Shown here: in pieces, positions 3,960-51,774 of the stretch
Position numbering within the stretch: position 1 is the first letter of the stretch
Layout: each line of letters begins with the position of its first letter
Origin: a bacterium
Lineage (GTDB): Bacteria > Sysuimicrobiota > Sysuimicrobiia > Sysuimicrobiales > Segetimicrobiaceae
Length of the DNA stretch: 52,353 nt
Direction of reading: 5' to 3'
NCBI GenBank assembly: GCA_035703895.1
Contig: DASSXJ010000160.1
Coordinates: 1 to 52,353 of the forward strand
The notes under the pieces: generated by a model
What the model was told of the DNA's origin: nothing
What the model saw: only the letters and a program-made list of their open reading frames with translations
Database searches by the model: none
Translations under genes and position numbers: made by a program

Positions 3960-5018
3960 ATGTCCGTCCTGGACGATCCGAAACGGGCGCGCACCTGCGA
4001 TCCGTCCGGAATGCTCGGCGTCGCGCTCGGCCTGCCCCGGCAGGTCCGTGAAGGTTGGGCCCTGGGCCGGGCAGCGCAGGTGCTCCCCCTGTCCGCGGCC
4101 CCCGAGCATCTCGTCATCTGCGGCATGGGCGGGTCCGCGATCGGCGGAGACCTTCTGTCGGGGTACCTCGCGTCCGCGTGTCCCATCCCGATCGCCGTGG
4201 TGCGGGGGTACGAGGTCCCCAAGTTTGTCGGCCCTCGCTCCGTCGTGATCGCGGCGTCTTATTCGGGGGCCACCGAAGAGACGCTGTCGGCCGTGGCCCA
4301 GGCCGAGCGCGCAGGTGCGACGGTGTTCGCGGTCACGTCGGGGGGACAGTTGGCCCAGACCGCCAAGCACGCGGCGGTCATGGTACCGGCCGGCCTGGCC
4401 CCGCGTGCCGCACTCGGTTACCTGATGTTCTCGGCGCTGGCCGTCCTCGAACGGTGGGAGTTGACCGGGCCGTGCGCGAAGGGCGTGGAGGAGGCGGCGG
4501 GTGTGCTCGAAGGGATCGCGGCGGAGTGCGGCCCCGAGGTCCCCGCCGTCCGCAATCCGGCCAAGCGTCTCGCGGAGGAACTGGCCGGTCGCGTGCCGGC
4601 GGTCTATGCCGCATCTCCGGGGATCGAGGCCGCCGCCCGCCGCTGGAAGTGCCAGTTCAATGAGAACAGCAAAACGCTCGCCACTTGGAATGTGTTCCCG
4701 GAGCTCAATCATAATGAGACGGTCGGTTGGGGCGCCCCCGCTGCGCTCGCGGCCCACTTCGCCGTGGTCGTGCTGCTCGAGGGGACGGAGCCGGCGCACC
4801 TGATGCGGCGGATCGGTCTCACGTCCGACCTGGCGCTTGGCCCGGCCGCGGGCGTGCACGAGGTGCGTGCGCGCGGGCGCGGCCGTCTCGCCCGGCTGCT
4901 CTCGCTGGTCTTCATCGGGGACTTGGTGAGCATCTATCTGGCCTACCTCCGCGGAGTCGATCCGACGCCTGTCGAGGTGATCGACGCCATCAAGCAGGGT
5001 CTGCGCGAGCCCCACTGA
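3960..5018 (+). CDS. Bifunctional phosphoglucose/phosphomannose isomerase (SIS domains)
   Basis: Interconverts fructose 6-phosphate with glucose 6-phosphate and mannose 6-phosphate. The 352-residue length matches the archaeal/bacterial PGI-PMI family rather than the ~550-residue classical PGI. SIS domain features are clear: CGMGGSAIGGDLL near residue 57, AASYSGATEETL for the phosphate loop, and CQFNENSK then ELNHNE in the second half, which carry the Glu and His used in isomerisation. The ATG at 3960 is preceded only by weak purines; frames upstream lack family similarity and overlap the divergent gene. It is divergent from the gpgS operon across 120 bases. Its products feed NDP-glucose and GDP-mannose, the likely donors of that operon. 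Confidence 0.9.
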   Translation: MSVLDDPKRARTCDPSGMLGVALGLPRQVREGWALGRAAQVLPLSAAPEHLVICGMGGSAIGGDLLSGYLASACPIPIAVVRGYEVPKFVGPRSVVIAASYSGATEETLSAVAQAERAGATVFAVTSGGQLAQTAKHAAVMVPAGLAPRAALGYLMFSALAVLERWELTGPCAKGVEEAAGVLEGIAAECGPEVPAVRNPAKRLAEELAGRVPAVYAASPGIEAAARRWKCQFNENSKTLATWNVFPELNHNETVGWGAPAALAAHFAVVVLLEGTEPAHLMRRIGLTSDLALGPAAGVHEVRARGRGRLARLLSLVFIGDLVSIYLAYLRGVDPTPVEVIDAIKQGLREPH

Positions 5019-5345: not shown

Positions 5346-7030
5346 CGGCGTCCACGCGCGTCGAGGCGGATCCCTCGCTCCTCGCGCCCCCGCCTCCGGT
5401 CCTGTTGGGCGTGCGCAGTGCGGAGGGGTGGATCAGCCTCATTCGGGTCCTGGTGCTCCTCTCGCTGATCCCGGCGCTGTGGTTCGGGATCATCGGGGTC
5501 ACCCATCCCGGTGTCACGAGCCTCGTCGTGCTTCTGGGGATCTACGTTATCGCGCTGGCGCTCGGCCCGCGGCGGTTCCGGCTGCTGCAGAAGACCGACC
5601 TCATCGTCGCGCTCGATATCCTCGTGGTCACCCTCGTCGTCAGCATCTCAGGCGGAATCAACAGCCCGTTCGTCTTCCTGTTCTATTTGACGATCGTGGA
5701 GGCCGCGGCACGGCTCAACGTCCGCCAGGCGATCACCGCCTCGCTCGCGATGGCCGGAATGCTGGTGCTCTTGGGGGTGCGCGCGGGGTGGGACGAGACG
5801 GCGGTCACGGCCGGGTTCAAGCTCGGCGCGCTCATGGCCGGCGGTTTTTTCCTCGCCCTGTTCCTCGGTATGCTCGTTCAAGAGTACCGGACCGGCCACG
5901 AGCGCACCTGGTGGGGCGCGCAACTGGATCACGCGCGGGCGCAGCGGACGGCCGAACTGGAAGCGTTCTACGATCTGTCCATGCGGTTACGGGCGGCGCA
6001 TGACGCCGGTGAGATGTATCCCATCATCGTCGATCACGCGGTCGAGCTCCTTCGGGCCGACCACGGAACCCTGGCGCTACTCTCTTCCGACCACCAGATG
6101 CTGGCCCGGCTCTATACCGCCGGGGTGTCCGCGGGGCCTGCGGGAGAGACCTTTCCCGTGGCCGGCAGTCCGTCGGAGTATGCGATCAAGACGGGGACGG
6201 CCTTTGTGACCGAAGATTTCGCGGGCGTGTCCGTTCCGGGATTTGACCCCGCTCCCTATCGCGCCTTCGGCCCCGTGGTCATCGTCCCGGTGCGCTCCGA
6301 GCAGGAGATCATCGGGGCCTTGGAGCTGGGGCGCAGCCGGGGCGGCGGGGCACGCGTGTTCACGGACGCCGACATCCGTCTGCTCGAGGGGATCGCGGAG
6401 ATCGGGGGCACTGCCGTTCGCCGGGCCCGCCTGTTCCAAAACCTGGAGCAGTCGTACATGCAGATGGTCCTGGCCCTCGCGCGGACGATGGACGCGCGCG
6501 ACACCTACACCGCCGGGCACAGCGAGCGGATCGCCGCGCTCGCGGAGACCGTGGCCAGGGCTTTGGGGAGCGCAGAGGAGGAGATTCAGGACGTCCGGTG
6601 GGGCGCGCTGCTCCACGACATCGGCAAGATCGGCGTGCCGGATGAGATCTTGAGGAAGCCCGGACCGCTCACCGAGGCGGAGCAGATCGTGATGCGGCAG
6701 CACCCGATCGTGGGGGAGGGAATCCTGGCCCCCACCGAGCGCATGCGCGGAGTGGCCAAGATCGTCCGCTACCACCAAGAGCGGTGGGACGGGTCCGGGT
6801 ATCCCGACGGCCTCCGAGGGGAAGCGATCCCCCTCGGCGCCCGCATCCTGGCGGCGGTCGACGCCTACAGCGCGATCACGGACGATCGGCCGTACAAGAA
6901 GGCGCGGTCTCACGCGGAGGCGATGCTGGAGCTCCGCCGGGGCGCCGGTACGCGGTACGACCCCCACATCGTCGAGGTGTTTTGTCAGGTGGTGGGCTGG
7001 GCCAAGGACGGCAAGGAGCGCGTGTCGTGA
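5342..7030 (+). CDS. Membrane GAF-HD-GYP protein, probable cyclic di-GMP phosphodiesterase
   Basis: 562 residues from the ATG at 5342. The first ~180 residues hold about five or six hydrophobic segments (near 31-52, 58-75, 86-102, 107-122, 130-145 and 158-179), then a short coiled linker, a GAF domain (about 220-365) and an HD-GYP domain (about 375-555). HD-GYP signatures are present: GHSERIAALAE, LLHDIGKIGVPDEIL with H425-D426, RQHPIVGEGIL, and WDGSGYPDGL. The paired-His motif reads YHQER instead of HHER, a change also found in other members. The enzyme is expected to hydrolyse c-di-GMP in response to a GAF or membrane signal. Its stop overlaps the GTG of the GGDEF gene. Confidence 0.93.
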   Translation: MTASTRVEADPSLLAPPPPVLLGVRSAEGWISLIRVLVLLSLIPALWFGIIGVTHPGVTSLVVLLGIYVIALALGPRRFRLLQKTDLIVALDILVVTLVVSISGGINSPFVFLFYLTIVEAAARLNVRQAITASLAMAGMLVLLGVRAGWDETAVTAGFKLGALMAGGFFLALFLGMLVQEYRTGHERTWWGAQLDHARAQRTAELEAFYDLSMRLRAAHDAGEMYPIIVDHAVELLRADHGTLALLSSDHQMLARLYTAGVSAGPAGETFPVAGSPSEYAIKTGTAFVTEDFAGVSVPGFDPAPYRAFGPVVIVPVRSEQEIIGALELGRSRGGGARVFTDADIRLLEGIAEIGGTAVRRARLFQNLEQSYMQMVLALARTMDARDTYTAGHSERIAALAETVARALGSAEEEIQDVRWGALLHDIGKIGVPDEILRKPGPLTEAEQIVMRQHPIVGEGILAPTERMRGVAKIVRYHQERWDGSGYPDGLRGEAIPLGARILAAVDAYSAITDDRPYKKARSHAEAMLELRRGAGTRYDPHIVEVFCQVVGWAKDGKERVS

Positions 7031-8142
7031 CGAAGGGGCCGTCGCACGGGCGGTCCCGCAAGACGCACGCGGGCGGCAGCGGGGAGCCTCGCGGCCCGCA
7101 CGCGCCTGCGGCCGGTGGCGGGGTCGCGACGGAATCGGGGCAAGCCCTCGCCTTTCTGGCCCGCCTGGCGATGGAGTTCACGGCGGTCCTGAGCCTCCCC
7201 GATCTGCTAGAGCACGTGACCCGCGTGCTCCGCGAGGAGACGGGGTTCGACTCGTGCGCCGTCTCGCTGCTCGCCACGCAGGACACCGAGGATGTACTGA
7301 TCGTGCGAGCCGCATCCGGGCTCCGCAAGATCATGAAGGGCGCCGTCCTCCCCCGCGGCCGGGGGCTCTCCTGGACGGTGATTGAATCGGGTCTCCCGCT
7401 GCTCGTGCCGGATATGGAGGCCGAGCCCCGGTGGTTTCTGAAGGACCCGCAGGTACGGTCCAGCATCTGGGCGCCGATGGTCGTGCAGCGGCGTGCGATC
7501 GGGGTGCTGAGCGCCTTTCGGAGCGCGGTCAACGCCTTCACGGAAGCCGATCTCGATCTGCTGACCGTCGTGGCGCGGTACCTCGCCGGCGCCGTCGAGG
7601 TGGCCCGCCTGCACGAGCAGCTCAAAGAGATCGCGGCGACCGATTCGTTGACCGGCCTGGCCAACCGCCGCACGTTTCTCGACCGGCTTCAATCCGAAAT
7701 CTCGCGGACCCGCCGCGCGCGCTCAGAGCTCTCCATCGTGCTGCTCGACCTCAATCATTTCAAGACGGTCAACGACGTGCACGGCCACGCCGTCGGCGAC
7801 CAGGTGCTCATCCGGGTCGCTGAGACGCTGAGCCAGACCGTGCGCCAGTCCGACGTCGCCGCCCGGTTCGGCGGGGACGAATTCATCCTGCTCCTCCCGG
7901 AGTCCACCCGGGCTGAGGCATCGCAGATCCTCGAGCGGCTGCGGGGGCTCTCGATCATGGTCCCGGATCGGGCGGGCAGCCGGGCGCGCGTCAACTTCTC
8001 CTGGGGGCTGGCCGTCTGGCCTCACGACGGCGAGGAGATCGAGCCGCTCCTCAAGGTCGCCGACCACAGACTCTACGCCATGAAGCGCGCCCGGGAGATT
8101 CCGGATCCCCGCCCGACGGGCCAGCCGCTGACCTCCGACTGA
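7027..8142 (+). CDS. GAF-GGDEF protein, probable diguanylate cyclase
   Basis: 371 residues from the GTG at 7027, which shares GTGA with the stop of the HD-GYP gene. The first ~35 residues are low-complexity and basic. A GAF domain covers about 40-195 and a GGDEF domain about 200-365. The catalytic loop is the intact RFGGDEF (GGDEF at 282-286), the metal-binding Asp lies in LLDLNHFK (D241), and NDVHGHAVGD matches the family. An inhibitory I-site RxxD (RQSD, 273-276) sits five residues before the loop, so product inhibition is expected. No membrane segment is seen. Together with the preceding gene it forms an antagonistic synthesis/degradation pair made from one transcript. Confidence 0.93.
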   Translation: MTKGPSHGRSRKTHAGGSGEPRGPHAPAAGGGVATESGQALAFLARLAMEFTAVLSLPDLLEHVTRVLREETGFDSCAVSLLATQDTEDVLIVRAASGLRKIMKGAVLPRGRGLSWTVIESGLPLLVPDMEAEPRWFLKDPQVRSSIWAPMVVQRRAIGVLSAFRSAVNAFTEADLDLLTVVARYLAGAVEVARLHEQLKEIAATDSLTGLANRRTFLDRLQSEISRTRRARSELSIVLLDLNHFKTVNDVHGHAVGDQVLIRVAETLSQTVRQSDVAARFGGDEFILLLPESTRAEASQILERLRGLSIMVPDRAGSRARVNFSWGLAVWPHDGEEIEPLLKVADHRLYAMKRAREIPDPRPTGQPLTSD

Positions 8143-25701: not shown

Positions 25702-25807
25702 ACGATCCATGATCGGCCGCCGCGTCGTGGTCGCGCGGAGTCGAGGGGAGGCGGGCGTGGGTGGCCGAAGCGGGTGGGAATTGGGGACAAGGATGACAAA
25801 AGGTGGA

Positions 25808-25816
25808 TGCTATAAT
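25808..25816 (+). promoter_or_regulatory. Extended -10 promoter of the htrA-like gene
   Basis: TGCTATAAT is an exact extended -10 motif, about 38 bases before the ATG at 25854. No good -35 hexamer is seen, as is usual for extended -10 promoters. Confidence 0.65.
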
Positions 25817-25853
25817 AGGTAAGGCCAGACGAAAGACAAGGAGGGATCGTGTC

Positions 25854-27029
25854 ATGGCTATGCAGACACCGAGCGCGCCGCCGCGCCGCCGCGGTCCAGG
25901 GTACCTCGCCGGGACACTCGCGATTTTGGTGGTCGTGGCGGTCGGAGCCCTGCTCGGCACCCTCGTGCTGCCTCAATATCTGGGGCTGCATCCGGTCTTT
26001 TCGGCGCAGCCGGTCCGGTCCGCACCGGCGCCCGCCGCGCCGTTGACCCCCGCGCCGCCCGTGTCCGTGAGCGGGACGGTGCGCGTCGCGCCCGAGGAGT
26101 CGGTGATCATCAACGTGGTCAAGCAAGTCCGCCCGGCCGTCGTCAACATCGATACGGAGTCGCAGGTCCAGACGATGTACGGGGTGTTCCCTCAGCAGGG
26201 CGCGGGATCCGGCGTGATCGTCCGCCCGGATGGCTACATCGTCACAAACAACCACGTCGTGCAGGGCGCGACGACGATCAAGGTGACGCTGATCGGGGGC
26301 AAGACGCTGACCGGCCGGATCGTCGGGCGCGACCCGCTGGCCGACCTGGCCGTCATCAAGGTGGACTCCAAAGATCCGCTCCCGGCGGCGCGGTTGGACA
26401 GCAGTAGCGGCCTGCAGGTCGGGCAACTGGCCATCGCCATCGGCAACCCGTTTGCGCTGGGGAGCACGGTGACCACGGGGGTGGTCAGCGCGCTCGACCG
26501 GAACATCCAGCTTCCGAACATCGCCGTGGAGAACTTGATCCAGACCTCCGCGGCGATCAACCCGGGCAACAGCGGCGGCGCCCTCGTCGACAGTTCGGGA
26601 GGGGTGATCGGGATCAACACGGCGATCATTCCGAGCGCACAGGGCATCGGGTTTGCGATTCCCAGCGACGTGGTCCGAGTCGAGATGGAGCAACTCATCG
26701 CCAACGGCCGTGTCATTCGGCCCAGGGTCGGGGTCGTCTATGGCGGTGAGGTGGATCCGCAGTCCGCGCGCGCGTACAATCTCGGGACCGACCACGGGGT
26801 CATCGTGCGGGAGGTCGAGCCCGGGGGACCGGCCGCGCGCGCCGGGATTCAGCCGGGTGACATCGTCACCGCGGTCAACGGGACGAGGATCGAAAGCTGG
26901 AACGATTTCGTCCGAGACGCCGTCGTCACGAAGAAGGTGGGGGAGACGATCAAACTGACCGTCGTGCGAGACCGCACGGCGCGCACGATGTCCGTGGTGC
27001 TGACCGAACGTCCGGCAGAGTCCCGCTAG
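25854..27029 (+). CDS. HtrA/DegP-type membrane-anchored serine protease with PDZ domain
   Basis: 391 residues. A single membrane anchor near residues 19-42 (LAGTLAILVVVAVGALLGTLVL) is followed by a Pro/Ala linker, the trypsin-like domain and one C-terminal PDZ domain. The catalytic triad is visible: His in VTNNHVVQG, Asp in DPLADLAVIKV, Ser in NPGNSGGALV. The PDZ carries EPGGPAARAGIQPGDIV. It degrades misfolded proteins outside the membrane. The start is fixed by AAGGAGGG about 8 bases before the ATG. glpX begins 2 bases after its stop, so it may head an htrA-glpX-argS transcript. Confidence 0.94.
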   Translation: MAMQTPSAPPRRRGPGYLAGTLAILVVVAVGALLGTLVLPQYLGLHPVFSAQPVRSAPAPAAPLTPAPPVSVSGTVRVAPEESVIINVVKQVRPAVVNIDTESQVQTMYGVFPQQGAGSGVIVRPDGYIVTNNHVVQGATTIKVTLIGGKTLTGRIVGRDPLADLAVIKVDSKDPLPAARLDSSSGLQVGQLAIAIGNPFALGSTVTTGVVSALDRNIQLPNIAVENLIQTSAAINPGNSGGALVDSSGGVIGINTAIIPSAQGIGFAIPSDVVRVEMEQLIANGRVIRPRVGVVYGGEVDPQSARAYNLGTDHGVIVREVEPGGPAARAGIQPGDIVTAVNGTRIESWNDFVRDAVVTKKVGETIKLTVVRDRTARTMSVVLTERPAESR

Positions 27030-41315: not shown

Positions 41316-42010
41316 ACGGCTCGGCTTCGCCGCCCGCGCTCGCGGCCCTCCGGCGGTGGGTCGCCGACGAGACCTGGCTCAAGCGGGCGCTCACGGCGCG
41401 CCGCTGGATGAGCCGGGTCTACTTCGAGGCCCGGTACATTATTCCGGATCCGTGGCGCCTGGCCACCTCGCCGTACGAACGAGCGCGCGCGCAGGCGTCT
41501 CTGCGAATCCTCGGGGGCCGCCATTATGCGTCCGCCGTCGAAGTCGGGTGCGGAGAGGGGATCTTCACGGCACGCCTGGTGAATCAGTGCACGCATCTTG
41601 TGGCCGTTGACTTCTCCACCCTGGCGATTCGTCGAGCCCGGCGGCGGTTTGCCGGCGATCCCCGCGTGGACGTCCGGCGGCTCGACGTCCGCATAGAGGA
41701 CCTTGATCGGACGTTCGACCTGGTGTTCTGCGCCGAACTCTTCTATTACTTGAACCATGCCGAATGCGAGGCCGTGGGGGCCCGGTTGCTCCGATGGCTG
41801 GCCCCCGGGGGCGACCTCTGCCTGGAACACGGGACCTCGGTCCACGATGTCGAACCTGCTGACGCAGAGTCGGCACGGCCCGGCTCCATGGGGGCGAGCA
41901 TGATCCACGAATGGTTCCGCCGGGTGTCAGGTCTCGTGGTCGTTCGTGATCTGGCCCTACCCCGCTTCCGGGTCACGCTGCTCCGGCGGATCGAGAACGC
42001 CCGTGACTGA
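41312..42010 (+). CDS. SAM-dependent methyltransferase, NodS-like
   Basis: 232 residues. The SAM-binding glycine-rich motif is AVEVGCGEGIFTARL, followed by acidic VAVDFST and the later FDLVFCAELFYYLNH. The best fit is the NodS-like/class I small-molecule methyltransferase group; the substrate is not apparent. The GTG start shares GTGA with the pth stop, and the next permease gene begins within its last codons, so it is coupled on both sides. Confidence 0.8.
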   Translation: MNGSASPPALAALRRWVADETWLKRALTARRWMSRVYFEARYIIPDPWRLATSPYERARAQASLRILGGRHYASAVEVGCGEGIFTARLVNQCTHLVAVDFSTLAIRRARRRFAGDPRVDVRRLDVRIEDLDRTFDLVFCAELFYYLNHAECEAVGARLLRWLAPGGDLCLEHGTSVHDVEPADAESARPGSMGASMIHEWFRRVSGLVVVRDLALPRFRVTLLRRIENARD

Positions 42011-43592
42011 ACGGACGGCATCCGTCTCGGTGCCCGCGGAGAGCCTCCGCCGGGACGTCTCGGTGTGGGGTTCCTTCATGTGGGGGTTCGCGGATGTCGG
42101 CGCGGACATCTATGCGGCCCTGGGCATCGTCATCGCGGCCACGATGGGTGCCGCGCCGCTGGCATTCGCGGCGGCGGGCCTCGTCTATGTCATGATCGGC
42201 CTGGCGTATACGGAGCTGGCCTCCGCGTATCCCATGGCCGGCGGCGGGCAATATTTCGTCAGCCGCGGCCTGGGGGACATTGCCGGGTTCATCGCCGGGT
42301 CCGCGCTGCTGCTGGACTACACCATCGATATTGCCCTGTTTGCGGTGTTCTCCGCCGGCTACTTGAATTTCTTCTTCCCGGCGGTCCGGGACTATAAGGT
42401 CAGCCTGGGACCGTTCCCGATCATCGGGACGCTGTCGAACATCACGCCGCTGTGGGCGGCGGAAACGGTCGTGTTCATCGTCTTCCTGACGTGGCTCAAC
42501 GTCCGAGGCGTTCGCGAATCATCGCTCCTCAATGAATTTATCGGAGCGTTTGGCCTGATCGTCGAAGCCGGACTCATCATCATCGGACTGGTCTTCGCTT
42601 GGAAGCCCGAACTCCTGGTGAGCCAGTGGGTCCACCAATTCCCGACCCTCAACCAGTTCATGTACGGGTCCTCGCTCGCGATCATCTCGTACGTCGGGCT
42701 CGAGTCGATCTCGCAGGCCGCGCAAGAGACCCGCCGCCCCGCGACCGTGATCCCCCGGACCTCCATCGGGCTGATCGGCAGCGTGTTCCTTTTCGCTGTG
42801 TTCTTTTCCATCACGGGGCTCGGGTTGCTGCCCTGGCAGGCCTACGCGAAGGATGTCGATCACTCGGTGGCATTGTTCGCCGACCGCCTCCCGTTCGTTG
42901 GGCCGATCGCCGGGCCCCTGGCGGCCATCCTGGGAGCCGTGATCTTGCTGATCTCCTCAAACACCGGCGTCATGGGGGCGAGCCGCCTCGTCTACTCGAT
43001 GAGCCAGCTCAAGCTCATGACGCCGTGGTTCCGCGAGGTCCACCCGCGTTACCGCACTCCGGCTCGAGCGATCCTGATCTTTTCGGGCATCGGCCTCCTC
43101 GAGGCGATGCTCGCGTTCCTCACCCCGAGCGCCGTCGACGCGCTCGCCAACATGTACGCGTTCGGCGCCACCCTGGGCTACACGTTGGTCTTCATCGCGC
43201 TGATCTCCCTGCGCATCAACGATCCGTACTCTCCCCGGCCCTATCGGGTGCCCTGGAACGTCCGGTGGACGCGCCGGGACGGGCAGGTGATCGCGATCCC
43301 GTTGATCGGGGTGCTCGGCTTGGTTGGCGTCCTCATCACGCTGACCGAGGTCGTGCTCACGCACGCGATCGGCCGGGTCGCCGGCCCGGTCTGGGTCATC
43401 GCCTGCCTGACGTACTACGTTCTGTACCGGCGCAAGCAAGGGCTTCCCGTGTGGCACAGCGCCAACCATCACTGGGAGGAGCAGCAGCGGGCGATTCTGA
43501 AAGACGCTGAGGAGTACGATCTCCTGGAGACCTATGAGTTCGCGCTTGCCCAGCGGGACCGCCAATTCGCGAGGGGGCAGGGGCATGCCTGA
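42003..43592 (+). CDS. APC-superfamily permease (amino acid or K+/cation uptake)
   Basis: 529 residues with about twelve membrane helices. The first helix region WGSFMWGFADVGADIYAALG and the loop YTELASAYPMAGGGQYFVSRGLGD are APC features. The helix 6-8 region has SSLAIISYVGLESISQAAQE. The hydrophilic C-terminus is acidic and charged. The GTG at 42003 overlaps the methyltransferase stop by 8 bases. Downstream come a small membrane protein, a membrane-anchored Usp and two TrkA proteins, which suggests that transport is gated by nucleotide-binding subunits. A close paralogue lies at 50115-51680. Confidence 0.88.
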   Translation: MTERTASVSVPAESLRRDVSVWGSFMWGFADVGADIYAALGIVIAATMGAAPLAFAAAGLVYVMIGLAYTELASAYPMAGGGQYFVSRGLGDIAGFIAGSALLLDYTIDIALFAVFSAGYLNFFFPAVRDYKVSLGPFPIIGTLSNITPLWAAETVVFIVFLTWLNVRGVRESSLLNEFIGAFGLIVEAGLIIIGLVFAWKPELLVSQWVHQFPTLNQFMYGSSLAIISYVGLESISQAAQETRRPATVIPRTSIGLIGSVFLFAVFFSITGLGLLPWQAYAKDVDHSVALFADRLPFVGPIAGPLAAILGAVILLISSNTGVMGASRLVYSMSQLKLMTPWFREVHPRYRTPARAILIFSGIGLLEAMLAFLTPSAVDALANMYAFGATLGYTLVFIALISLRINDPYSPRPYRVPWNVRWTRRDGQVIAIPLIGVLGLVGVLITLTEVVLTHAIGRVAGPVWVIACLTYYVLYRRKQGLPVWHSANHHWEEQQRAILKDAEEYDLLETYEFALAQRDRQFARGQGHA

Positions 43593-44462: not shown

Positions 44463-44528
44463 GGGAGGGCGAGGCCCCCGCCGTTCCGGCGTGGGGTGAA
44501 TGATTCGCTTGGAGGGAGGAGTCAAGCC

Positions 44529-44984
44529 ATGCATGTCGTGATTCTTGGTTGCGGTCGTGTGGGTGCGACCCTCGCGCTGATGCTTGAGTCCGAGGGCCAC
44601 TCGGTCGCGATCGTGGACCGCGATCGGGAAGCGTTCCGGCGTTTGGGCCGGAACTTTAGGGGGAAAACGATCCTCGGCATCGGCATCGACGAAGACGTTC
44701 TCCGCAAGGCCGGCATCGAGCGGGCGGGCGCGTTCGCGGCGACGACCAGCGGGGACAACTCGAACATCATGTCGGCCCAGATCGCCAAGATCAAGTACAA
44801 GGTCGCCCGGGTCATCGCCCGCATCTACGACCCCTTGCGGGCCGAGGCGTACCAAGAACTGGGAATCGACACGATCAGCCCGACGCTCCTGGGCGCGGGG
44901 ATGTGCCGGGATTTCATCGTCGGGGCTGCCTGGCGGACCATCGGGGAGTACCAGGCGCTCCCCGAGTTCTTGGCCCACGCGTAG
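44529..44984 (+). CDS. TrkA-N (RCK) nucleotide-binding protein, single domain
   Basis: 151 residues comprising only the RCK N-terminal domain: HVVILGCGRVGATLALMLESEGH with the GxGxxG loop, VAIVDRD with the acidic ribose-binding residue, and TTSGDNSNIMSAQIAKIKY. The TrkA-C domain is absent. GGAGGGAGGAG before the ATG at 44529 settles the start. It is followed after 21 bases by a second TrkA protein. Confidence 0.88.
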   Translation: MHVVILGCGRVGATLALMLESEGHSVAIVDRDREAFRRLGRNFRGKTILGIGIDEDVLRKAGIERAGAFAATTSGDNSNIMSAQIAKIKYKVARVIARIYDPLRAEAYQELGIDTISPTLLGAGMCRDFIVGAAWRTIGEYQALPEFLAHA

Positions 44985-45005: not shown

Positions 45006-45680
45006 ATGTATGTGATCGTCGTTGGGGGCGGCAAGGTCGGATATTACCTGACCAAGGCCCTGATCGCTGCCCGTCAGGAGGTCACCGTGCTCGAAAAGCT
45101 CCGGCGGCGGTTCGATCTGCTGCAGGAGGAGTTCGGGGACGCCGCGTTTCTCGGCGACGGGTGCGAGGTTCGGACGCTTGAGCAGGCCGGCGCGCCTCGG
45201 GCCGATCTCGTCGCGGCCGTCACCGGGGACGACGAGGACAACCTCGTGATCTGTCAGATGGCCAAGCGGAAGTTCAATGTGAAGCGAGTCATCGCGCGGA
45301 TCAACAACCCAAAGAACGAAGTCACGTTTCAGATGCTGGGGATCGACGAGACGGTCTCTTCGACCAAGCTGATTTACAGCCTGATCGAGCAGGAGGTCGA
45401 GATCGCCGACGTGATTCCGCTCACCGCCCTCCGGAAGGGGCAGCTCGAACTCGTGGAGGTGGCGCTGCCTGAGGGCGCTCCGAGCGTCAACCGGCGAGTG
45501 CGGGATCTGGCCCTCCCGGCCAAGAGCAGCCTGGCGATCCTGGTGCGGGGGAATGATGCGGAGATCATCAACGGCGACACGGTTCTCCGCGGCGGCGATA
45601 TCATCGTGGCCATCACGCCCTCGGCCATCGTCCAGGAGTTTCGCAAGGCCATGCTGGGCAGGGCTGTTCCTACGCCCTGA
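45006..45680 (+). CDS. TrkA-family potassium uptake regulator (TrkA-N plus TrkA-C)
   Basis: 224 residues. YVIVVGGGKVGYYLTKALI is the dinucleotide-binding loop and TVLEKLRRRFD follows. The RCK domain runs to about 135, and a TrkA-C domain covers about 140-220 (VEVALPEGAPSVNRRVRDL, VAITPS near the end). Such proteins sense NAD(H), ATP/ADP or c-di-AMP and gate K+ transporters. With the preceding single-domain protein it forms a pair like the actinobacterial CeoB/CeoC, which co-occur with APC or Trk permeases. Confidence 0.9.
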   Translation: MYVIVVGGGKVGYYLTKALIAARQEVTVLEKLRRRFDLLQEEFGDAAFLGDGCEVRTLEQAGAPRADLVAAVTGDDEDNLVICQMAKRKFNVKRVIARINNPKNEVTFQMLGIDETVSSTKLIYSLIEQEVEIADVIPLTALRKGQLELVEVALPEGAPSVNRRVRDLALPAKSSLAILVRGNDAEIINGDTVLRGGDIIVAITPSAIVQEFRKAMLGRAVPTP

Positions 45681-45774
45681 CCCCTCGACCCGTCCGGCTC
45701 CTCCGGCCCCCCATGGAACTTTTCCCCCGCCCCCGGCGCTTCATAACATACGTGTCGATCCGGGGGGCCGGGCG

Positions 45775-46434
45775 ATGGCGGACGCGGTATCGGTTGTCGG
45801 AGGCCTGGGAAGCATGACGTCCCCGTTCCCCGTGGGGGAAGGGGACAGGGAGGCGGTGTCCGGCGCCGAGGTGCCCGGAACGGTCCACCGGCTGGCGGCC
45901 TTTGAGGAGCTCGTCCTGCAGCACCAGAAACAGATCTACCGGGTCGCCTATCGGCTCACGGGGAACCACAACGACGCCGAGGACCTCGCCCAGGAGGCCA
46001 TCGTCGAGGCGTTTCGAGCGTTCGACCGGTATCAGCCCGGCACCTATTTCGACCGGTGGCTGTACCGGATCATGAGCCGGACATACATCGACACCGTCCG
46101 CCGCCGCAACCGCAGGCCGGTCGTCTCGCTGGATGCGCCGATGGGCGGTAAAGGCGATCCACTCGTCACCGTGATGGGAGATTCGAGCCAGGATCCGCAG
46201 CAGATGACCGAGACGTTCGATTTGGACGGGGTCGTTCAGCTGGCGCTGGACGGCCTCCCGCAAGAGTTTCGGACGGCGGTCGTTCTTGCGGACATCGAGG
46301 GCCTGTCGTATGATGAAGTGGCGCAAGCCCTGCGGTGTCCGGTCGGGACGGTGCGGTCGAGGCTGCACCGGGCCCGGCAGATGCTCCGCGAGGCGCTTGG
46401 GCCGCACCTGGGCGCAAGGAGGGATGACCGATGA
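45775..46434 (+). CDS. ECF-type RNA polymerase sigma factor
   Basis: 219 residues. A disordered N-terminal extension of ~45 residues precedes sigma region 2 (LVLQHQKQIYRVAYRLTGNHNDAEDLAQEA, then WLYRIMSRTYIDTVRR) and region 4 (LPQEFRTAVVLADIEGLSYDEVAQALRCPVGTVRSRLHRARQML). No C-terminal extra domain. A GGAACTT at 45715-45721 resembles an ECF -35 element and hints at autoregulation, but I see no matching -10. ATG 45775 is chosen with G-rich upstream sequence. Its stop overlaps the anti-sigma start. Confidence 0.92.
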   Translation: MADAVSVVGGLGSMTSPFPVGEGDREAVSGAEVPGTVHRLAAFEELVLQHQKQIYRVAYRLTGNHNDAEDLAQEAIVEAFRAFDRYQPGTYFDRWLYRIMSRTYIDTVRRRNRRPVVSLDAPMGGKGDPLVTVMGDSSQDPQQMTETFDLDGVVQLALDGLPQEFRTAVVLADIEGLSYDEVAQALRCPVGTVRSRLHRARQMLREALGPHLGARRDDR

Positions 46435-46925
46435 GCCGGCATGTTGCTGACCAGCTCTCGGCCTACATCGACGGCGCCCTCGGCGTGCGGGACGTCGAGC
46501 GGGTGAAGGCCCACCTGGATGTGTGCCCGATGTGTCTCCAGGAGTATCACGAACTCCATGGCGTGCAGCGTCTGCTCCGGGGATTGCCCGATCCGGGTCC
46601 CCAGCCGGGGTTCCTGGACCGAGTCCACTGGCGGCTGCAGCGCGAGGCCGCGCAGCACCATCGGCCCAGCCTGGTCCCCAGGTTCGTGAGCACATTGCAG
46701 ATCAGGCCCTTCCGGCTGGCGGTTGCGGCGAGCGCCCTGGCGTTGATGCTGGCGATCCCCTGGGCGTGGATGACCGGGCAGTTCGGATGGCGTGTAGCAC
46801 CCCTCGATTCGGATGCCTACGTGCGCCATTATCTGGTGCTGTCCTCCGACCGATCGCTGGTCGACGAAGCGACCACCACGTTCGTGTCCAACGACCTGGG
46901 CGTCCCGGATCAGCCGACCCGGTAG
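46431..46925 (+). CDS. Zinc-finger anti-sigma factor, membrane-anchored
   Basis: 164 residues. The ZAS motif HLDVCPMC (H-x3-C-x2-C) near residues 28-35 binds the ECF factor. A membrane helix at about 96-114 (AVAASALALMLAIPWAW) separates it from an extracytoplasmic tail of ~50 residues. Its ATG overlaps the sigma factor stop (ATGA), the usual cognate pair layout. Signal-dependent cleavage or conformational change would release the sigma factor. Confidence 0.92.
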   Translation: MSRHVADQLSAYIDGALGVRDVERVKAHLDVCPMCLQEYHELHGVQRLLRGLPDPGPQPGFLDRVHWRLQREAAQHHRPSLVPRFVSTLQIRPFRLAVAASALALMLAIPWAWMTGQFGWRVAPLDSDAYVRHYLVLSSDRSLVDEATTTFVSNDLGVPDQPTR

Positions 46926-46926
46926 G

Positions 46927-49359
46927 ATGCGTTCACCGATCATCCGCCAGGCGGCCGTCCTGGCGGTTTTTTCATTGCTGGTGAGCGCCGTCCCCTCCCC
47001 TGGGTGGTCCCAACCCGTGCTCCCGGGGGGCGTTGACACCGCCGTGTCCTGGCTTCGGTCGGGCGCAACGGCGCCCCGGCGGGTCAGTTACGAGGGCACG
47101 AAGTCGATTACGATCTGGGGCGCCCAGGTGCAGGCGTCTCAGGTGCACATTTACCATGCCGCCCCGGATCAGACCAGGCTTGAGTACCTGGCGGCAGGCA
47201 ATCAACCTGGGCGGGTCGTGGTCATCAGAGGTCGTACCATGATGGAGTACGTGCCGGCCCGCAACCAAGTCGTGGAGCGGCCGGCGCCCGAGGCCGATGA
47301 GGAGCGTCTCACCCGGGGGGTGCTCCCCCAGATCCTGACCAACTACGACGTCGGCTTCGCGGGCACAGAATCCGTGGCGGGGCGAGCCACCCGGGTGGTC
47401 AACGTGCAGAGCAAATACCCGGGCCGGCCATCGCTTCGGGTCTGGGTGGACCGCGAGCGGCGGTTGATCCTGAGGTTCGAGCGATACAAGCCGGATGGGA
47501 CGCTCCAGGAGACCGCGGCATTCATCAACGTCCAGTATGATCCCGTGTTTGCCCCGGACCTGTTCACGGTGCCGGCGCCGCCGGGCACGCAGGTGCAGCA
47601 GCAGCGGCCCCCCGGCCGCATGACGATCGCGGAGATCGCACAACGCGTCGGCTTCACGCCCCAACTGCCGTCCTACCTGCCATCCGGGTTTCAACAGAGG
47701 GGATCCCGCGTGGTCAACGTGCAGGGGCAACCGGTGGCGACGTTTGTGTACTCCGACGGCCTCTCCACGATGACTTTGTTCGAGAGCCGAGGACCGCAGG
47801 GCCCGCCGCCGAAGGGCCAGCCGGTCCGCATCGGGTCCATTCAGGGGACCGTCGCGCCGCGGGGACTCGCGACGCTGCTCCACTGGAACGCCGGGGGCAT
47901 CTCTTACACGCTCGTCGGAGAACTGCCGCAGGAGGAGTTGGTGCGGATCGCCGCCTCGGTGCCGCAGGTCTCGGGTATGCGCACGTCGATGCCGGAGCGG
48001 TTCTGGGGGTCTGTGGCGACGCTCGGTGCCCTCCCCGCCGCCCAAGCGGCGCAACCGAGTCCCAGCCCGGACTCACCGGATTGGCCGGGCGTCCCACCCG
48101 TGCCGATCGCACCGTACATTACGAACGATACGCACCCGATCGGCCCGGGGCTCGCCGCCGAAGAGGTCCGGATCTGGCGTGCCCTCAAGACCGCCGGGCT
48201 CACCCCGATGGTGGTCAAGGTGACGGTCGCGGGCGACGGCGTCACCCGGCTGTCGGACGGACGCCTTGGGCATCTCGCCTGGATCCGCTTCGTGTACGGG
48301 ATGGACTGGACGGGAGACCGCGAGGGAATCGTCCGGGAGGTCCAGGACATCGCCCGCGCGCTGGCGGCGACGGCGTTCCGCGCCGACTCGCGAGCCGGCC
48401 AGGTCGTGCTGACGGGACAGTATCATCGGAGCGGGCCGTTCAACCCCCAGCGATGGGACGTCACCTTCACCGCACGCTTGTACCGAGATCTGCTGACGTC
48501 GGCGCCGACCGATCTGGAGGCCGGCCCGGCGCTGGCCCAGGCGGGGGATGTCTGGTACAGTCCCGACCTCGTCTCCGGCGCGCTCGTGATGCTGCCTCCG
48601 CGCGCTCATGAGCCCCTCAGGAGCCCGCGATCCGCGAGGGTCGCCGCCGCGCTACCTGGAGATCGGTCTGCCGAGGCGGCGGTACACTTCAAGGGGAATG
48701 TTCTCCAGGTCATCGTGGAGACCAAGCGCCGGCTCGACGGCATCCTGTTCGGCATCGAGAGCGACGGCCGTCTGTGGCGCGGGAATCCGCGCCGGCAGGA
48801 GGTCGCGCTGACGTTTGACGACGGACCGGATCCCGTCGCCACGCCCCTGCTGCTCGGTGTGCTTCGGCGGTTCGGGGTCCACGCGACGTTTTTCGTGATC
48901 GGCGAGCACGCGACCACCTACCCGTACCTGATCAAGCAAATGGCGGCGGAAGGGCACGAAGTGGAGGATCACACGTTTCACCATCCGCGGCTGACGACGG
49001 TGGATGCCTCGGTCGTACGCGAGGAGATCGCGGCGGGGTCGGAGGTGCTCGCGCCCCTCGCGGGACGGGCGCGATGGTTCCGGCCTCCCGGCGGCGACTA
49101 CAGCGCCGACATCGCCGGCGCAGCCCGGGAATCGGGGATGCGGCTCGCGATGTGGACGGTGAACTCGGGGGATTGGACCTCGCCCCCGTCGAAACGCCTG
49201 GTTGAGCGGGTGCTGGCCCGCGCGGAGCGTGGGGCGATCATCCTGTTGCACAACGGCACGCTCGTGACCGTCCGGGCGCTTCCCGAGATCATCGGCGAAC
49301 TCCAGCGCCGGGGATATGACCTCGTGACGCTCGCAGAGCTGGCGCACGGGTCGGAGTAG
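46927..49359 (+). CDS. RseB/MucB-like sensor fused to a polysaccharide deacetylase (NodB) domain
   Basis: 810 residues in one uninterrupted frame. Signal peptide to about residue 29. Residues ~34-225 resemble the lipid-binding N-domain of MucB/RseB (YEGTKSITIW, VNVQSKYPGRPSLRVWVD, RFERYKPDG). Residues ~232-345 resemble the RseB C-domain or DUF4367 (LPSYLPSGFQQRGS). Residues ~395-590 are a domain I do not recognise. The NodB domain (~625-808) has TFDDGPDP (629-636), H682 and H686, RPPGGDYS (719-726) and LLHN. The ATG is 1 base after the anti-sigma stop. It probably senses envelope damage and deacetylates a wall or surface polymer; fusing both is unusual. Confidence 0.85.
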   Translation: MRSPIIRQAAVLAVFSLLVSAVPSPGWSQPVLPGGVDTAVSWLRSGATAPRRVSYEGTKSITIWGAQVQASQVHIYHAAPDQTRLEYLAAGNQPGRVVVIRGRTMMEYVPARNQVVERPAPEADEERLTRGVLPQILTNYDVGFAGTESVAGRATRVVNVQSKYPGRPSLRVWVDRERRLILRFERYKPDGTLQETAAFINVQYDPVFAPDLFTVPAPPGTQVQQQRPPGRMTIAEIAQRVGFTPQLPSYLPSGFQQRGSRVVNVQGQPVATFVYSDGLSTMTLFESRGPQGPPPKGQPVRIGSIQGTVAPRGLATLLHWNAGGISYTLVGELPQEELVRIAASVPQVSGMRTSMPERFWGSVATLGALPAAQAAQPSPSPDSPDWPGVPPVPIAPYITNDTHPIGPGLAAEEVRIWRALKTAGLTPMVVKVTVAGDGVTRLSDGRLGHLAWIRFVYGMDWTGDREGIVREVQDIARALAATAFRADSRAGQVVLTGQYHRSGPFNPQRWDVTFTARLYRDLLTSAPTDLEAGPALAQAGDVWYSPDLVSGALVMLPPRAHEPLRSPRSARVAAALPGDRSAEAAVHFKGNVLQVIVETKRRLDGILFGIESDGRLWRGNPRRQEVALTFDDGPDPVATPLLLGVLRRFGVHATFFVIGEHATTYPYLIKQMAAEGHEVEDHTFHHPRLTTVDASVVREEIAAGSEVLAPLAGRARWFRPPGGDYSADIAGAARESGMRLAMWTVNSGDWTSPPSKRLVERVLARAERGAIILLHNGTLVTVRALPEIIGELQRRGYDLVTLAELAHGSE

Positions 49360-49360
49360 G

Positions 49361-50098
49361 ATGGCGGACCGGGACAAGCACATGACGCTGGTGGAGCACC
49401 TCGAGGAGCTCCGCCAGCGCCTCCAATACGCGATCCTCGGGCTGCTCGTTGCGACGGGAGTCGGACTCTTCTTTGTCGACGTCCTCCTCGGTATTCTGCT
49501 CCGGCCGGCAGGGAGCGTGAAGCTCACCACCCTGACCGTGCTCGAGCCGTTTCTCGTCAAGATCAAGGTCGCGTTTCTGTTCGGGTTCGCCGTGAGCATG
49601 CCCTGGATCGTTTACCAGCTGTACGCGTTCGTCGATCCCGCGCTCACGGAGACCGAACGCCGCAGAACGATCCCCTTGTCGCTCCTCGCGGGGTTTCTGT
49701 TTGCGGTCGGCATCGTGTTCGGGTACCTCGTGATTCTGCCCGTCAGCCTGCATTGGTTGCTCGCGCAGGCAGGGACCCAGTTCAACGCGTTGATCACCGC
49801 GAACGCCTATATCTCGTTCGTCCTCTTCTTTCTCTTGATCGTCGGCGCGACGTTCGAGACGCCCCTTGTCATCCTCACCCTGGCGTTTCTCGGCGTGGTC
49901 TCCGCGCAGACCCTCCGCCGGGAGTGGCGGATCGCCTACATGATCATCGCGGGGATCGCCGTCTTCGGCACGCCCGACTGGAGCCCGGTGACGATGCTCC
50001 TCGTCGCGATCCCGATGGTCCTGCTCTACGAGTTCAGCATCGTCCTCTGCCGGATCTTCATTAAGCCCCCGGCCCCGGAGCCGATCCGGGGTACGTAG
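49361..50098 (+). CDS. tatC: Sec-independent protein translocase TatC
   Basis: 245 residues with six membrane helices. It opens MTLVEHLEELRQRLQYAI, the signal-peptide-binding N-terminus of TatC, and includes FVDPALTETERRR and FGTPDWSPVTMLLVAIPMVLLYEF. It recognises twin-arginine signals of folded exported proteins. It starts 1 base after the deacetylase stop, so it is part of the sigma/anti-sigma operon. No tatA/tatB is adjacent. It converges on the APC permease with only 16 bases between stops. Confidence 0.94.
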   Translation: MADRDKHMTLVEHLEELRQRLQYAILGLLVATGVGLFFVDVLLGILLRPAGSVKLTTLTVLEPFLVKIKVAFLFGFAVSMPWIVYQLYAFVDPALTETERRRTIPLSLLAGFLFAVGIVFGYLVILPVSLHWLLAQAGTQFNALITANAYISFVLFFLLIVGATFETPLVILTLAFLGVVSAQTLRREWRIAYMIIAGIAVFGTPDWSPVTMLLVAIPMVLLYEFSIVLCRIFIKPPAPEPIRGT

Positions 50099-50114: not shown

Positions 50115-51680
50115 TCACCGCCGGTCTCGTTGGATTCGCGCTTTGTCCCTGGCAGCAAGCGCAAACCGATACTCCTCCAACAGCGAATATTCTTCCGCCG
50201 ATTCTAGGATCGCCATCTGTTCCTCGGGCCAGTTCCGTGGGATGGACCCCAAGATAGGGTACCCTCGCTTCCGCCGGTACGTCACGTAATAGGCGATGCA
50301 AAGGATGACCCACGCGGGCCCAGCGATCCGTCCAATGGTGTGTGTGGCGATGACCTCAAAGAGGATGAGGCTCACGCCTGCGATGCCAAGGAACCCAAGC
50401 ACCGGGATTCGAACCGACTCCCCTCCGCGACGCCACGTAATGTTGAGGGGCACGTGATAGGGACGAGGCGTGACCGGATCGGTGAACCGAAGCCGGACCA
50501 ACGATACGAAGACCAAGAGGTAGGCTAAGGTCGCGCCGAACGCGTACATGTTCCCCAAGGTATCGAGGGCCTGGGGTGTAAGGAATGAAAGCAGGGCCTC
50601 GATGATCGCCAGGGCAGAGAATACAACGATTGTGCGGTAGGGAGTGCGATATTGGGGGTGCACCGCGTTCATCCACCGGGTGGCCAGTCCCAGCTCGCTC
50701 ATGGAGAACGTCAGCCGGGACGAGCCCATCACTCCCGTGTTGGCGGAGATGAGCAGGATGGTCGCCCCCAGCACGGCCGCGAACGGGCCGGCAATCACCC
50801 CGACAATTGGAATGTTTTGAGCCAACAGCGCCACAGGATCGTCCTGGTGCTGCGCGATCTGCTGCCAGGGCAGCATCCCGATTCCCAACGTGGAGAATGC
50901 CATCGCGAACAGCAGGACGCTGAAAATCAGTCCGAGCGATGTTCGCGGGATGACCGTGGCCGGACGACGGGTCTCCTGGGCGGCCTGGGAGATCGATTCC
51001 AACCCGACGTACGAAATGATCGCCAGTGAAGACCCGTACATGAACTGGGAGAACGTAGGTTGTTGCGTCTGAAACTGGTGCACGAGCAACTCGGGTTTCC
51101 ACGCGAATAGGAACCCCAGGATGATGACCGATGACTCTGTGACCATGTCGATGCTGCCGATGACCTCGTTGAAGAGTGACGACTCACGTATCCCCCGGAT
51201 ATTGAGCCAGATGAGGAAGAGAATCAACACGACCGTCTCCGCCGCCCAAAATGGGTTGATGTGCCGAAACGGGCCCAGCGTTACCGAGTAATTCCGAATG
51301 GCGGGAACGAAGAAGTTGATGTATCCTGCCGAGGCCGCCGCAAACAAGGCGATATCAATGGTGTAGTCAAGGAGGAGCGCCGACCCCGCTATGAACCCCC
51401 AGAAATCCCCCAACCCCCGCGCCGTATAGTACTGCCCGCCTCCCGCCACCGGAAAGGAACTCGCGAGTTCGGTGTAGGCGAGACCGATGAGAACGTAGAC
51501 TGCGCCCGCGACCGCGAACGCAAGAGGAGCAAGCCCCATAGACGCGGCCACGACAATCCCGAGGGCTGCGTAGATGTCGGCACCGACGTCGGCGTATCCC
51601 CACATGAACGAGCCCCAAATGGAGATATCTCTGCGAAGGCCCCGGGAAGACCCGGAGTGGGTTTCTTGCGTTTGGGTCAT
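50115..51680 (-). CDS. APC-superfamily permease, paralogue of the 42003-43592 gene
   Basis: 521 residues, about twelve membrane helices. It aligns along its length with the permease at 42003, sharing WGSFMWGxADVGADIYAALG, a ~36-residue identical block from QFMYGSSLAIISYV through RRPATVIPRTS, and the charged C-terminus (AEEYSLLEEYRFALAARD). The ATG at 51680 is chosen because it gives exactly the same number of residues before LRRD as the paralogue; ATGs at 51695 and 51728 are less likely. Its DNA appears less GC-rich than its neighbours. It has no Usp or TrkA partner nearby and has its own upstream region with phased repeats. Confidence 0.88.
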   Translation of the reverse strand: MTQTQETHSGSSRGLRRDISIWGSFMWGYADVGADIYAALGIVVAASMGLAPLAFAVAGAVYVLIGLAYTELASSFPVAGGGQYYTARGLGDFWGFIAGSALLLDYTIDIALFAAASAGYINFFVPAIRNYSVTLGPFRHINPFWAAETVVLILFLIWLNIRGIRESSLFNEVIGSIDMVTESSVIILGFLFAWKPELLVHQFQTQQPTFSQFMYGSSLAIISYVGLESISQAAQETRRPATVIPRTSLGLIFSVLLFAMAFSTLGIGMLPWQQIAQHQDDPVALLAQNIPIVGVIAGPFAAVLGATILLISANTGVMGSSRLTFSMSELGLATRWMNAVHPQYRTPYRTIVVFSALAIIEALLSFLTPQALDTLGNMYAFGATLAYLLVFVSLVRLRFTDPVTPRPYHVPLNITWRRGGESVRIPVLGFLGIAGVSLILFEVIATHTIGRIAGPAWVILCIAYYVTYRRKRGYPILGSIPRNWPEEQMAILESAEEYSLLEEYRFALAARDKARIQRDRR

Positions 51681-51724
51681 CGGTTGTGATCCCATGTCCC
51701 CGAGAAGTGTACCAGGGCCGAGGA

Positions 51725-51774
51725 TCAAGAAACCCTCAAGAACATGCGCAGAATCATCAAGATCTGCTCAAGAA
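51725..51774. repeat. Four helically phased 7-bp repeats upstream of the second APC permease
   Basis: TCAAGAA occurs at 51725, 51736 and 51768 and TCAAGAT at 51757. Start-to-start distances are 11, 21 and 11 bases, so all four face one side of the helix in two pairs. On the minus strand they read TTCTTGA and lie 45-94 bases before the permease ATG. Paired 7-bp direct repeats with 4-bp spacers are the DNA site type of PhoB/OmpR response regulators. Confidence 0.7.

Follow-up and report, generated by a model that had tools for sequence, protein, structure and literature searches.

An ECF sigma factor operon of Candidatus Segetimicrobiaceae encoding an RseB-like protein fused to a CE4 deacetylase

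Results

Organization of the operon and integrity of the fusion frame

Four same-strand genes at positions 45775-50098 of a 52,353-nucleotide stretch (contig DASSXJ010000160.1 of assembly GCA_035703895.1, from position 1; hereafter the window) encode an ECF sigma factor, an anti-sigma factor, an 810-residue fusion protein and TatC. The fusion joins a two-domain RseB-like half, through a linker and a middle domain (MID), to a NodB/CE4 polysaccharide deacetylase, a type of enzyme that strips acetyl groups from sugar polymers such as the cell wall. This lineage-specific architecture is new, and its component parts are all known. We favor, with somewhat better than even confidence, a joint reading as an autoregulated envelope-stress operon in which an RseB-gated anti-sigma controls the sigma factor and a deacetylase is fused to the brake. 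The features considered here are as follows.

25803..27029, + strand: candidate site-1 protease, HtrA/DegS-like, outside the operon (Trypsin_2, E 2e-32; PDZ_2, E 5e-15)
45715..45740, + strand: predicted promoter of the ECF type ahead of sigma, GGAAC-N17-CGCT
45775..46434, + strand: ECF sigma factor, 219 aa (Pfam Sigma70_r2, E 1e-18; Sigma70_r4_2, E 5e-16)
46431..46925, + strand: zinc-finger anti-sigma (Pfam zf-HC2, E 4e-8)
46927..49359, + strand: probably secreted fusion, 810 aa, with a signal-peptide-like N terminus, RseB, linker, MID and CE4 deacetylase
47041..47547, + strand: RseB N-terminal (LolA-like) domain, aa 39-207 (PF03888 MucB_RseB, E 4e-17)
47674..47961, + strand: RseB C-terminal domain, aa 250-345 (PF17188 MucB_RseB_C, E 1.2e-7)
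47977..48150, + strand: linker, aa 351-408 (~58 residues), predicted disordered (pLDDT about 30)
48157..48561, + strand: MID core, aa 411-545, alpha-beta-beta-alpha-beta-beta (pLDDT mostly above 90)
48772..49344, + strand: NodB/CE4 deacetylase domain, aa 616-806 (Polysacc_deac_1, PF01522, residues 619-740, E 5e-33)
49361..50098, + strand: TatC, 245 aa, closing the operon (PF00902, E 1e-57)

The sigma and anti-sigma genes share a 4-bp ATGA overlap, and 1-bp gaps separate the anti-sigma gene from the fusion and the fusion from tatC. An earlier note on this DNA had described four genes with overlaps or 1-base gaps; the open reading frames agree with that description, and the identities are supported by Pfam calls that exceed curated cut-offs on all four genes. 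In NCBIfam, TatC scored 164 bits against TIGR00945 (cut-off 132.7), and the nearest model for the sigma factor was SigE, mycobacterial-type, with a score under its cut-off.

A long frame of this kind could result from an assembly or frame error that merged two genes. The source genome is a fragmented draft of 337 contigs, and among the relatives the frame is broken in one genome (G002) and the gene is interrupted by a contig break in another (G007), as such an error would lead one to expect. However, the same single frame, at 54-67% identity, runs unbroken through long contigs of other species (one of 410 kb) from independent genomes of four genera, and third-position GC stays at 0.81-0.90 in every domain, so that codon-position GC is even along the fusion. 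Misassembly therefore does not lie behind the fusion; we regard an artefact as extremely improbable, and the single 810-residue frame reported in the earlier note stands. A separate internal translation start for MID-NodB was considered and rejected, as the linker carries no conserved Met in the orthologue alignment.

Elsewhere in the window, two amino-acid permease genes that are 65% identical and lie in opposite orientation (41946-43592, + strand; 50115-51728, - strand) bracket the Usp/TrkA/sigma operon region. Tandem TrkA-type genes (44496-44984, N domain only, and 45006-45680) are found directly upstream of the sigma gene, and TrkA-type genes occur upstream of sigma in several other family genomes too.

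Distribution of the fusion

The hosts are uncultured soil bacteria of Ca. Segetimicrobiaceae, phylum Sysuimicrobiota, and the fusion gene is present, whole or in pieces, in 12/12 family genomes. A single unbroken match was obtained in seven genomes of four genera (G000, G004, G006 and G008-G011); in G005 one frame is covered by two adjacent matches, contig ends cut the gene in G001, G003 and G007, and it is frame-shifted in G002. Wherever contigs permit, sigma, anti-sigma, fusion and tatC come in this order, and tatC follows the deacetylase end in all 12 genomes, pieces counted. The fusion was not found in the other 31 genomes of the phylum or in about 250 more distant genomes (E <= 1e-38; about one genome per genus), no plasmid record covered 80% of it (0 records), and one run of a contig scan returned only Ca. 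Segetimicrobiaceae matches. The same domain order, which the earlier note proposed to seek in other genomes, thus recurs within the family and in none of the others searched. In the part of the literature that was covered, neither an RseB-deacetylase fusion nor any other enzyme-bearing RseB was found.

Outside the family, genomes of the phylum carry a lone RseB behind sigma/anti-sigma genes, and MID-NodB is a separate protein of secreted type, mostly 412-485 aa long with its own signal-peptide-like N terminus. One extra-phylum genome (G088) also encodes a stand-alone MID-NodB. These proteins share MID and the CE4 domain with the fusion and are likewise probably secreted, but have their own putative signal peptide and no RseB half. 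Outside the phylum, MID linked to a CE4 deacetylase lies at L123:6073-7332; within Ca. Segetimicrobiaceae genomes, we saw no further protein with MID.

The RseB half

RseB is normally a secreted protein that relays envelope stress to a stress-response switch, and in each of the phylum's other families examined it is a separate protein, as the earlier note had assumed. The N-terminal half of the fusion was proposed there to have an RseB/LolA-like fold. An AlphaFold2 model of the whole fusion (38-sequence alignment, mean pLDDT 83.8) returned E. coli RseB as its top PDB fold match in Foldseek (E 9.4e-21, TM 0.77 on the target), in an alignment of ~320-327 columns that covers both RseB domains. 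The best structural matches included 2v42, 2p4b, 3m4w and 6jau, which have the two-domain RseB fold; LolA was also matched by the N domain (E 3e-10), and phmmer matched E. coli RseB in the PDB at E 9e-7. These results substantiate the proposed fold.

Every full-length fusion begins with a basic and hydrophobic segment that is signal-peptide-like by sequence. Export of the fusion by the Tat pathway was entertained and set aside: several orthologues have an RR pair ahead of their hydrophobic stretch, but the window protein lacks it (IIRQAAV).

An RseB-like half might serve as a lipid- or wall-binding module that targets the deacetylase rather than as a tuner of the anti-sigma. SsdC, an RseB-like protein of Bacillus subtilis, is a spore-shape factor that influences spore cortex assembly (PMC7769602), an instance of the fold being repurposed for wall assembly. 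A wall-type enzyme as fusion partner would fit such a role, and in the family genomes a further RseB, without a fusion partner, follows another sigma/anti-sigma pair. Against this, the fusion lies directly behind its anti-sigma gene, as the earlier note had asked, in all family operons whose contigs include the upstream side; both RseB domains are retained, the anti-sigma tail is conserved, and the fusion RseB groups in the tree with stand-alone RseBs of sigma/anti-sigma operons. We therefore consider a pure targeting function improbable.

The anti-sigma factor and candidate proteases

The anti-sigma has a single hydrophobic segment (about aa 94-114) followed by an outer tail of ~50 aa, which contains a YVRxY...(R/D)PLxDE-like motif common to RseB-linked anti-sigmas throughout the phylum. 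By Pfam it consists of zf-HC2, the hydrophobic segment and the short tail only, without a DUF4163/DUF3298 receptor. The shielding of the RseA/MucA anti-sigma by RseB/MucB was taken as the mechanistic model (PMC7400510), and by analogy with those pairs one would expect the tail of the anti-sigma to be shielded by the RseB half. Counting against this, the window tail is about half the length of those of MucA/RseA (~90-97 aa; PMC7400510), and no match of it to their RseB-binding helix was demonstrated.

The product of 25803-27029, with an N-terminal hydrophobic segment, a trypsin domain and a PDZ domain, is one among several site-1 protease candidates. The genome encodes a site-2 protease, HtrA-type proteases (this product among them), LpxC and Omp85. 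Because LpxC and Omp85 are present, the host likely has an outer membrane with lipid A; given these proteins together with the proteases, the cell could use a lipid signal of the RseB kind and regulated proteolysis.

MID and the CE4 deacetylase

The earlier note described a middle domain that it could not name, and naming it from Pfam, PDB sequences or fold failed here as well: MID belongs to no Pfam family, has no PDB sequence match, and in fold searches gave only weak matches to small alpha/beta folds, namely C-terminal domains of cation-efflux proteins (MamM-type, E 0.016) and FliF ring motifs. From sequence and the predicted model, MID is a candidate new domain family tied to CE4 deacetylases.

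The catalytic motifs TFDDGP (TFDD), HTFHH, RPPGGDYS, SGDW and LLH are all present in the window fusion (5/5) and likewise intact in all fusions read; this motif audit and the PF01522 match confirm that the NodB motifs are intact, as noted earlier. CE4 enzymes in the PDB were matched down to E 2e-37 (phmmer), and fold matches of this half included PdaC, Bc1960 and acetylxylan esterase (Foldseek, TM 0.85-0.94). The CE4 fold and motifs resemble those of PdaC, PgdA and Bc1960 (TM 0.85-0.87 to PdaC and Bc1960), whereas no match of MID to any part of them turned up in sequence or fold, and in the material covered they do not figure as partners of an RseB. No NCBIfam equivalog model was matched at or above its cut-off; peptidoglycan or another envelope glycan is the likeliest substrate.

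The linker

Linker residues 357-375 (ERFWGSVATLGALPAAQAA) look like a signal peptide of reduced length that has an AxA|A site, and they occupy the place of the signal peptide in stand-alone MID-NodB proteins. The pattern is (R)..W-(hydrophobic)-A[EQD]AA, in which the segment before the A[EQD]AA is weakly hydrophobic and mostly preceded by Arg. All orthologues that extend over this position (9/9) have A[EQD]AA there, and apart from this segment linker length is very variable. Judged by sequence, the segment may be a relic signal peptide of a stand-alone MID-NodB ancestor. Its 10-residue mean hydrophobicity is 1.3-2.3, versus mostly 2.3-3.4 for true N-terminal signal peptides, and it contains charges in G005, G006 and G011. 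Since it is less hydrophobic than most signal peptides and charged in three orthologues, cleavage of the linker is doubtful; a working internal signal peptide was rejected on the same grounds, and only a possible relic was retained.

These properties bear on whether the fusion provides anything beyond co-expression. It could be a historical accident that sets equal dose, with halves that act independently once exported, RseB on the anti-sigma and MID-CE4 on the wall, and a linker that is irrelevant or is cut into two proteins at its relic signal-peptidase-like site. The linker is disordered and variable save for a conserved, signal-peptide-like A-[EQD]-A-A placed like the signal peptide of stand-alone MID-NodB, and the halves may therefore act independently or be separated; in relatives, two separate genes suffice. 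On the other hand, the low hydrophobicity and the charges make cleavage questionable, A-x-A-A comes easily in Ala-rich linkers, and the fusion has been kept across four genera. Co-expression alone is a serious possibility, although we do not favor it.

Promoter and autoregulation

The sigma gene is preceded by an exact GGAAC-N17-CGCT in 10/10 fusion operons, where 0.006 would be expected per 200-bp stretch; this count is not blind, as the motif was first read from those very sequences and some promoter stretches were hand-adjusted where the ORF start preceded the motif. The same motif opens most sister-clade operons and is also found before tatA in G039 and G040 and before the stand-alone MID-NodB of G042, and the exact form is absent upstream of 9/10 stand-alone MID-NodB genes. 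In the second sigma clade, 0/12 operons have the exact motif; looser GGAAC...CGT-type sites with a different -10 are seen instead. This ECF-type promoter makes it probable that the operon is autoregulated by its own sigma factor, and further support comes from the -10 element, whose form segregates with the sigma clade. Regulon prediction from the exact pattern was abandoned, as the whole source genome gave 4 matches versus 4 in the backward control, showing no enrichment.

In G039 and G040, divergent ECF-type promoters are predicted between tatA and the sigma operon (L068, about 4579-4733; L069, about 6915-7052), and this arrangement suggests that tatA belongs to the sigma regulon in these genomes. 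Sister-clade sigma operons open with a small secreted-looking protein of ~125-131 aa (L069:7052-7447, L107:1628-1999 and L106:3953-4336), with no Pfam match in the two that were scanned.

Origin of the fusion

Sigma and RseB trees each resolve two clades with full support. Copies of other families group with the fusion clade; their neighbors are tatA (L068, L069, L103, L106), tatA-tatC (L107) and, in G039/G040, stand-alone MID-NodB. The second clade holds the unfused paralogue that the family also keeps (e.g., G000:C152). By these sequence trees, the fusion is shown to descend from a Tat/NodB-neighboring sigma copy. The simplest history that we infer is loss of the rseB stop codon before a neighboring signal-peptide-MID-nodB gene.

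The second sigma/anti-sigma/RseB set of the source genome (L083 on G000:C152, sigma at 5475) has no deacetylase and a CGTC -10 element, so that two parallel RseB systems, the fusion operon and this set, are present in one cell.

Discussion

In the reading we prefer, the zinc-finger anti-sigma would keep sigma at the inner membrane, and the RseB half, outside that membrane, would bind the short tail of the anti-sigma and block a DegS/HtrA-like site-1 protease. Lipid or lipid-A-type stress ligands could fill the LolA-like pocket, upon which the tail would be let go and site-1 and site-2 (RseP-like) proteases would cut the anti-sigma and free sigma. Free sigma would then transcribe its own operon from GGAAC-N17-CGCT, renewing the RseB brake as feedback and yielding the MID-CE4 deacetylase, for modification of envelope glycan or peptidoglycan, and TatC, for export. 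The deacetylase, an older operon neighbor, would have been fused to RseB in this family, and the enzyme might be retained close to the anti-sigma and set free only under stress. Tail binding, ligand, substrate and tethering are the inferred elements of this scheme.

Because the deacetylase is fused to RseB, sensor and enzyme are made 1:1. The predicted disorder of the linker argues against tight mechanical coupling, and the evidence speaks more strongly for regulatory coupling, in which a single autoregulated sigma operon encodes both halves. The suggestion in the earlier note that sensing and repair reside in one molecule is plausible as a hypothesis. In a stronger version, the tail-bound deacetylase would be parked at the inner membrane until a ligand event or a cut in the linker frees it. 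We think this somewhat unlikely; if true, it would allow immediate post-translational wall remodeling, ahead of transcription.

The operon resembles E. coli rpoE-rseA-rseB and P. aeruginosa algU-mucA-mucB in its order of sigma, anti-sigma and RseB, its two-domain RseB, its membrane anti-sigma with an outer tail and the presence of site-1/site-2 protease candidates in the genome. It differs from them in that RseB is fused to MID and a CE4 deacetylase, the operon ends in tatC, and the anti-sigma is a zf-HC2 protein (ZAS) with a short tail, not RseA-type. Precedent for a deacetylase under an ECF sigma comes from sigV-rsiV systems, in which the operon or regulon of such a sigma includes a peptidoglycan-modifying enzyme (the C. 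difficile csfV operon with the PdaV deacetylase; E. faecalis PgdA; B. subtilis OatA). In those systems, however, the anti-sigma (DUF4163/DUF3298) is itself the lysozyme receptor, the deacetylase is separate and there is no RseB. M. tuberculosis sigE/rseA-htrA-tatB likewise combines a SigE-like ECF sigma, an anti-sigma and a Tat gene at one locus, but with htrA in place of the RseB-deacetylase, tatB rather than tatC, and no fusion.

If the coupling is real, sigma release would be linked to an effector within the same molecule, and one could ask whether ligand binding by RseB controls the location of the enzyme. The meaning of the Tat gene in the M. tuberculosis sigE locus has been called still difficult to understand (PMC10027907), and the conserved sigma/RseB/Tat/deacetylase neighborhood bears on the reason for the placement of Tat genes in loci of the sigma-E type.
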